Of a stretch of 37,494 nucleotides of DNA, positions 1-633 are shown piece by piece; within the stretch, counting starts at the first letter, position 1; the number at the start of each line of letters is the position of its first letter. The notes beneath the pieces are model-generated. The model worked only from the letters and a program-made list of their open reading frames with translations. It was not told where the DNA came from and searched no databases. Source of the stretch: Bacteroidota bacterium (GTDB lineage Bacteria > Bacteroidota > Bacteroidia > 2-12-FULL-35-15); contig JANYDQ010000128.1 of the NCBI GenBank assembly GCA_025363555.1, positions 1 to 37,494 on the forward strand, given 5' to 3'. The translations under genes and the position numbers were made by a program.

Positions 1-108
1 AATAATGCCCCAAAATAAATTACCTATACTTTCTTATTTTTATACCCAACAATTTTATTAGTTCCTCGATATTTTTTAATTACGCAGCCTTCTTGCAAAT
101 TTTTAAAT

Positions 109-633
109 TTACTCCTGCTGTAACAGGTATATAGTTACCACTTTATTTTGGTTGCTATTATTATTATTGAAATGCAGCGATTTTGTCATTTCCAAATCAA
201 TTACATCCATGAAAAGCATTATTCTTGCCATGAATACAGCATCACCTCCTAATACAGGATTTTGATATGCAACGTTTTCAAGTTGGGAAATTTCCGTGCT
301 ATCGTATTTGTACCAATATTCTATTGCCCTTGTGGTATCAGTATTATATGCTAATTCATTCAGATAAATGGTATTTACAATTTTTTGATTTGCTTCATCA
401 ATAACATACAGCAAGGCAGCAGCATGGTCTGTGGTCATTAAGCTATGCTCCAGAGACTTTCCTTTGGGAGTTAAGCCTTCGTCAAGCAATAAATTGGTTT
501 CAATTTCGGTAAGTGTGGAACCTTCTATGCTGGTGGAATGATGGGTAACAGAATAGAGGTTGAACTTATCAAAATGAATGCTTTCTGATAAATTTAACCG
601 TTGGTATTCTTCTATTAGTTCGGTAATTTGCAT
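109..633 (-). CDS. Chimeric ORF: Fic-family N-terminus joined to a T9SS-protein tail
   Basis: The 174-aa product is two unrelated parts. Residues 1 to about 80 read like the N-terminal region of Fic-domain AMP-transferases, including a HHSTSIEGS stretch that fits the [S/T]xxxE[G/N] inhibitory-helix motif and the LLLDEGLTPKG segment common in that family. The catalytic Fic core (HPFx[D/E]GNGR) is absent. From about residue 84 (IYLNELAYNTDTT, then LENVAYQNPVLGGDAVFMAR) it instead resembles the segment just upstream of the sorting domain in large Bacteroidota surface proteins, which usually reads like LxxIAxQCPxxGGxAVYxARAL. No sorting domain follows; the ORF ends in an Asn-rich tail. A catalytic AMP-transfer role is therefore not expected. 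It is probably a recombination remnant rather than a working gene. Family assignments are from memory of motifs, not from a search. Confidence 0.5.
   Translation of the reverse strand: MQITELIEEYQRLNLSESIHFDKFNLYSVTHHSTSIEGSTLTEIETNLLLDEGLTPKGKSLEHSLMTTDHAAALLYVIDEANQKIVNTIYLNELAYNTDTTRAIEYWYKYDSTEISQLENVAYQNPVLGGDAVFMARIMLFMDVIDLEMTKSLHFNNNNSNQNKVVTIYLLQQE

Follow-up and report, generated by a model that had tools for sequence, protein, structure and literature searches.

How does a single open reading frame (ORF) come to join the N-terminus of a Fic protein to a segment that normally precedes the sorting domain of type IX secretion system (T9SS) cargo, and does the combination have a function? 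The ORF in question lies in a stretch of 37,494 bases (hereafter the window) that is the entire contig C148. The original prediction saw in it the two protein halves, and offered as explanations either a deletion scar between two former genes or a stand-alone inhibitor-like peptide. We found the ORF to consist of three parts: a Fic N-terminus, a pre-sorting-domain T9SS segment and the tip of a transposon. The prediction had overlooked that the last nine residues and the stop are transposon-coded (the tip starts at window 139), as well as the position at a contig edge. The features are as follows.

109-633, minus strand: composite ORF, 174 aa (open reading frame list)
382-633, minus strand: Fic piece, residues 1-84, class II-type, with STSIEG (identity to six intact relatives and motif scan)
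366-399, minus strand: A-rich Fic/T9SS junction zone, imperfectly like both parents (DNA matches, column view, codons)
142-381, minus strand: T9SS piece, residues 85-164 (start approximate), which normally precedes a sorting domain (identity to G000:C377 and G026:C6)
140-147, plus strand: candidate target-duplication bases ACTTTATT adjoining the transposon tip (flank comparison)
1-139, plus strand: right end of a 3.4-kb IS1595-family element, with the tip at 115-139 as terminal inverted repeat (100% identity to the right end of the C362 element)
109-139, minus strand: transposon-coded end of the ORF, comprising the last base of codon 165, nine codons (VTIYLLQQE) and the stop (codon table)
1-141, no strand: overlap between contig ends, exactly 141 bases long and shared with C362 and C149 (sequence identity)

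The chimera itself matches nothing in Pfam (E up to 1) or NCBIfam (E up to 0.1), and we found no tRNAs in the window.

The Fic assignment of the N-terminal half held. In pairwise comparison, residues 1-84 are identical at 59-71 of 84 positions to intact Fic proteins from six same-genus genomes, with 71/84 at L035. These relatives are 264-265 aa long, and the open frames at the matches measure 264-321 aa. Five of the six alignments cover exactly residues 1-84 (63-71/84 identical); the sixth relative, L039 (on a contig of genome G015), gives a weak, gapped alignment that runs to residue 134, into its own catalytic domain, with DNA identity at background level beyond the joint. Strong Fic matches in the protein search that start at residue 1 end at residues 85-96 in five of the six genomes and at 130 in G015, and additional genomes gave less strong matches to this half, which resemble other Fic proteins in the part of them that was inspected. 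The motif [S/T]xxxE[G/N] is intact from residue 33 (STSIEG). The catalytic motif HPFx[D/E]GN[G/K]R was absent from the ORF in a motif scan, as the original prediction had stated, and Pfam gave no match there to the Fic core domain (PF02661); the motif definitions follow a passage in PMC5651007 and the abstract of PMC7479194. Set against class II Fic proteins, in which the inhibitory helix lies N-terminal to the PF02661 core, residues 1-84 share the inhibitory motif and same-genus homology, but the composite ORF lacks the whole catalytic core. By motif and homology, this stretch would be assigned to the class II inhibitory type.

A search of the same genome's bin did not recover the missing Fic half, and the window contig has no match to the Fic core. 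Only one Fic-domain match in the assembly exceeds the Pfam cut-off, a different 185-aa protein on contig C3. We considered this ORF as the missing half and rejected it, as it is a different Fic protein with 28% identity over part of the core. It is encoded at L001:1417-1974, between ORFs that resemble, by eye, type I restriction methylase and specificity subunits.

Searched as a single protein, the ORF recovered two distinct sets of relatives, Fic proteins for one half and T9SS-type proteins for the other. Residues 80 to 166 or 170 are 66-67% identical to proteins on C377 of the same genome (67%) and on C6 of genome G026, and in the C377 protein the matched stretch directly precedes a Por_Secre_tail/TIGR04183 sorting domain, in agreement with the segment type proposed originally. 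T9SS-type matches extend from about residue 72-80 to 146-170, and the same genome supplies four of them. When 14 of these were read on, an xPNP sorting-domain-type motif followed downstream in 13, L034 being the exception. Relative to T9SS type A cargo (TIGR04183/PF18962), the composite ORF shares the stretch immediately before the sorting domain, LENVAYQNPVLGGDAVFMAR, but lacks the cargo's N-terminal and middle parts as well as the sorting domain, for which neither Pfam nor NCBIfam gave a match in the ORF (TIGR04183/PF18962); its absence, too, had been noted originally. In the aligned T9SS relatives L003, L013, L014 and L028, a YPNPN motif stands about six residues past the point at which the transposon starts. 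The sorting domain is thus missing from the composite ORF because the element sits just ahead of it. One strict DNA pattern for the severed domain gave no matches in the same genome.

A complete copy of the transposon is present elsewhere in the assembly.

C362:39774-43173 (L049:3775-7174): complete element, 3400 bp, with two inverted 25-bp tips and an IS1595 transposase

Its transposase matches NF033547 (E=1.5e-63), PF12762 (E=7e-46) and, above cut-off, PF12760, and its inverted tips differ between left and right by one base. On the strength of the transposase and the terminal inverted repeats, the element whose right end occupies window 1-139 would belong to the IS1595 family. With IS1595-family (ISXO2-like) insertion sequences and transposons with passenger genes it shares a DDE_Tnp_IS1595 and zinc-ribbon transposase, 25-bp inverted tips and, at one insertion, an 8-bp target duplication, whereas it differs in having its transposase flanked on either side by small unrecognised ORFs. 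In the C362 element these encode 118, 97 and 104 aa, the latter two overlapping by 4 bases. None of the three matches Pfam or NCBIfam; by eye, we take them to resemble HicB/HicA-type pairs. Searched as DNA, the element was not matched in any of 24 other same-genus genomes, and among 16 same-class genomes it had a single partial match (70%, over query bases 1145-2136, which contain the transposase).

Five tips were found in the assembly: both ends of the C362 element, one of left type on C344 and one each of right type on C148 and C149. C344 ends inside the left end of another copy of the element (99% identical over about 310 bases), and its left flank ends in ACAAATTT, the same bases with which the C149 flank starts. 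This sister insertion therefore carries a perfect 8-bp target duplication, which fixes the tip position and shows that the element has moved. A duplication of 8 bp is the usual size for the IS1595 family according to a passage in PMC8101967. Beside the composite ORF, by comparison, no matching target duplication was found in the assembly, and neither left tip carries a ACTTTATT flank; the only other left flank, that of C362, has ATCATAAA at its end, which differs from ACTTTATT in the C148 flank. Either two copies of the element recombined, or the true partner contig is absent from the bin. At the sister insertion, an ORF of 177 aa (L050:6587-7120, on C149) draws its last 19 residues from the transposon end, so that this tip gives rise to artificial C-termini both in the window and on C149.

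The transposon end also marks the limit of the contig. The first 141 bases of the window are the last 141 of C362 (length 43,175) and, reversed, of C149 (length 31,198), and its other end has exactly 141 bases in common with the end of C394 (length 6221). A de Bruijn graph assembler leaves contigs with shared ends of fixed length where its graph branches, and 141 is the largest default k of MEGAHIT. The composite ORF sits at a repeat-induced assembly break, and the branch is the transposon end.

The joint between the two protein halves can be placed narrowly. The best DNA matches of the nearest Fic relatives reach window 366, that of L010 reaches 344, and those of L038 and L039 only 381; most T9SS relatives begin to match at window 396. 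The joint therefore lies in an A-rich stretch of about 20-30 bases, which is imperfectly alike in both parents. Past the junction, from about window 361, identity to the Fic relatives falls to 2-5 of every 10 bases in all five compared. Residues 80-84 (EANQK) could stem from either parent, because the corresponding residues of T9SS tails are EENQK, TEANKK or EANEK. The reading frame is kept across the joint, and the ORF is open over both halves.

We regard recombination at this short similar stretch as the most likely origin of the joint. A different account is that the joint is an assembly misjoin or a chimeric read, with the Fic gene whole and the T9SS piece located elsewhere beside a transposon. 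Such an error would fit a joint lying about 400 bases or less from a contig end that stops in a transposon repeat, in a bin of 400 contigs where a strain mixture is possible; it would also fit the failure to find the remainder of the Fic gene in the bin and, by one strict pattern, the severed sorting domain. A wrong path through the assembly would nevertheless call for a long repeat, and none long enough was seen: there is no close second copy in the assembly of either the joint region (best 77% over 66 bases) or the T9SS piece (best 84% over 82 bases), and the stretch common to the parents is short, imperfect and far under the 141-base overlap of the assembly. We consider a misjoin possible, though not probable. 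It leads to the same verdict of a remnant without function as our preferred reading by recombination, and differs from it only on the joint.

Were the ORF the scar of a deletion between neighbours, relatives might keep the two genes side by side, as the original prediction proposed to check. They do not. Across seven Fic loci of 2.8 to 8.4 kb each (L010, L016 and L035-L039), no T9SS tail or sorting domain was found near the Fic gene at E <= 1e-3 (0/7; best 0.008, at L016), and we rejected a simple deletion between adjacent Fic and T9SS genes. The more general idea of a scar fared better, with two unrelated pieces meeting within about 20-30 bases and no full-length relative in 58 genomes. Besides the Fic piece, the window has only weak protein matches (27-35% identity) in common with the relatives' Fic loci. 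Further into the window, positions 1530-1875 and 1753-2217 are repeat-rich and open on both strands, the minus strand coding a GRYDRKSGRYHRK-like repeated tail.

A scar reading would have been in difficulty had the 174-aa chimera turned out to be one conserved family with a role of its own, which an open frame running through both halves might suggest. Of 58 other genomes searched (35 same-genus and 23 same-class ones, the former a second time at a stricter threshold), none had a match with both halves in this architecture. A short-pattern scan of contigs in a wider collection gave five loci, by length the same contigs as in five of the six Fic-matching genomes; all were whole Fic genes and none had both halves. 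A few weak alignments do cross the joint, namely those of L039 in G015 (to residue ~134), L016 (to ~137) and L027 in G043 (residues 46-142; E=8e-4, 33% identity over 97 columns overall). The first two, however, are normal Fic proteins that each possess a catalytic core, L039 having only background DNA identity beyond the joint, and the L027 match, to a T9SS-type tail, extends into the Fic half poorly and with gaps. A conserved chimeric family is thus scarcely credible.

Rates of substitution were also compared. For the Fic half, dN/dS is 0.08-0.18 in the six pairs with the query and 0.05-0.22 in the 13 calculable of 15 other pairs, slightly lower (0.05-0.10) among the three relatives closest to the query; these values make a weak test, because they mostly measure the time before any breakage. 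The low ratio implies that the damage is either recent or an artefact, and while it fits recent breakage, a functional fusion would show the same. For the T9SS half, dN is 0.23-0.33 with the query and 0.22-0.35 among the others, with dS saturated in half of the pairs.

The proposal of a stand-alone inhibitor-like peptide deserves separate consideration. Such a peptide would be a VbhA-like antitoxin, one that binds and inhibits a Fic enzyme in trans. In the present case, the Fic N-terminal helix with STSIEG would be expressed and would block a Fic enzyme in trans, an idea in keeping with the intact motif and with the partners that give class I Fic enzymes their inhibitory motif in trans, as described in a passage of PMC5651007. 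The same source, in the part that concerns class II, places the helix in the same chain as the core, which speaks against the idea. Moreover, the assembly yielded no Fic enzyme of matching type, the matches in the 58 genomes included no conserved stand-alone version, and the C-terminus of the ORF is coded by a transposon tip. With the whole not conserved, we judge an inhibitor role very improbable, and the proposal was not upheld. More improbable still is a real, expressed fusion, produced by transposon-assisted gene shuffling, that has retained the inhibitory helix and targets other Fic proteins in trans.

We therefore return to a scar, and propose the following history. An IS1595-family transposon with small extra ORFs would have inserted in a T9SS cargo gene, just before its sorting domain, and its tip, which is directly visible in the window, would now provide the last codons and the stop. 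In a separate event, most likely illegitimate recombination at the short A-rich stretch similar in both genes, the T9SS piece would have been fused in frame with the opening ~84 codons of a class II-type Fic gene. The repeat made by the transposon copies would then have broken the assembly at this place, a break to which the 141-base shared contig ends attest. Several points count against this explanation: the insertion without a matching duplication, the sorting domain that was not found, the in-frame joint, the constrained-looking Fic half, and same-genus loci without the two genes side by side. Even so, we hold with considerable confidence that the composite ORF is a non-functional set of gene remnants, which most likely arose via transposon insertion and illegitimate recombination. 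In all likelihood we are dealing with an ordinary scar where an assembled contig ends, and a selected function for the whole is not expected.

In conclusion, a striking domain combination at a contig edge has been traced to gene fragments and a transposon tip, which is a reason for caution with similar cases. If translated, the composite ORF would yield the N-terminal stretch of a Fic protein but not the catalytic core that belongs to it. For the lineage itself, the 3.4-kb IS1595-family copies with their small extra ORFs constitute a minor record of recent mobility.
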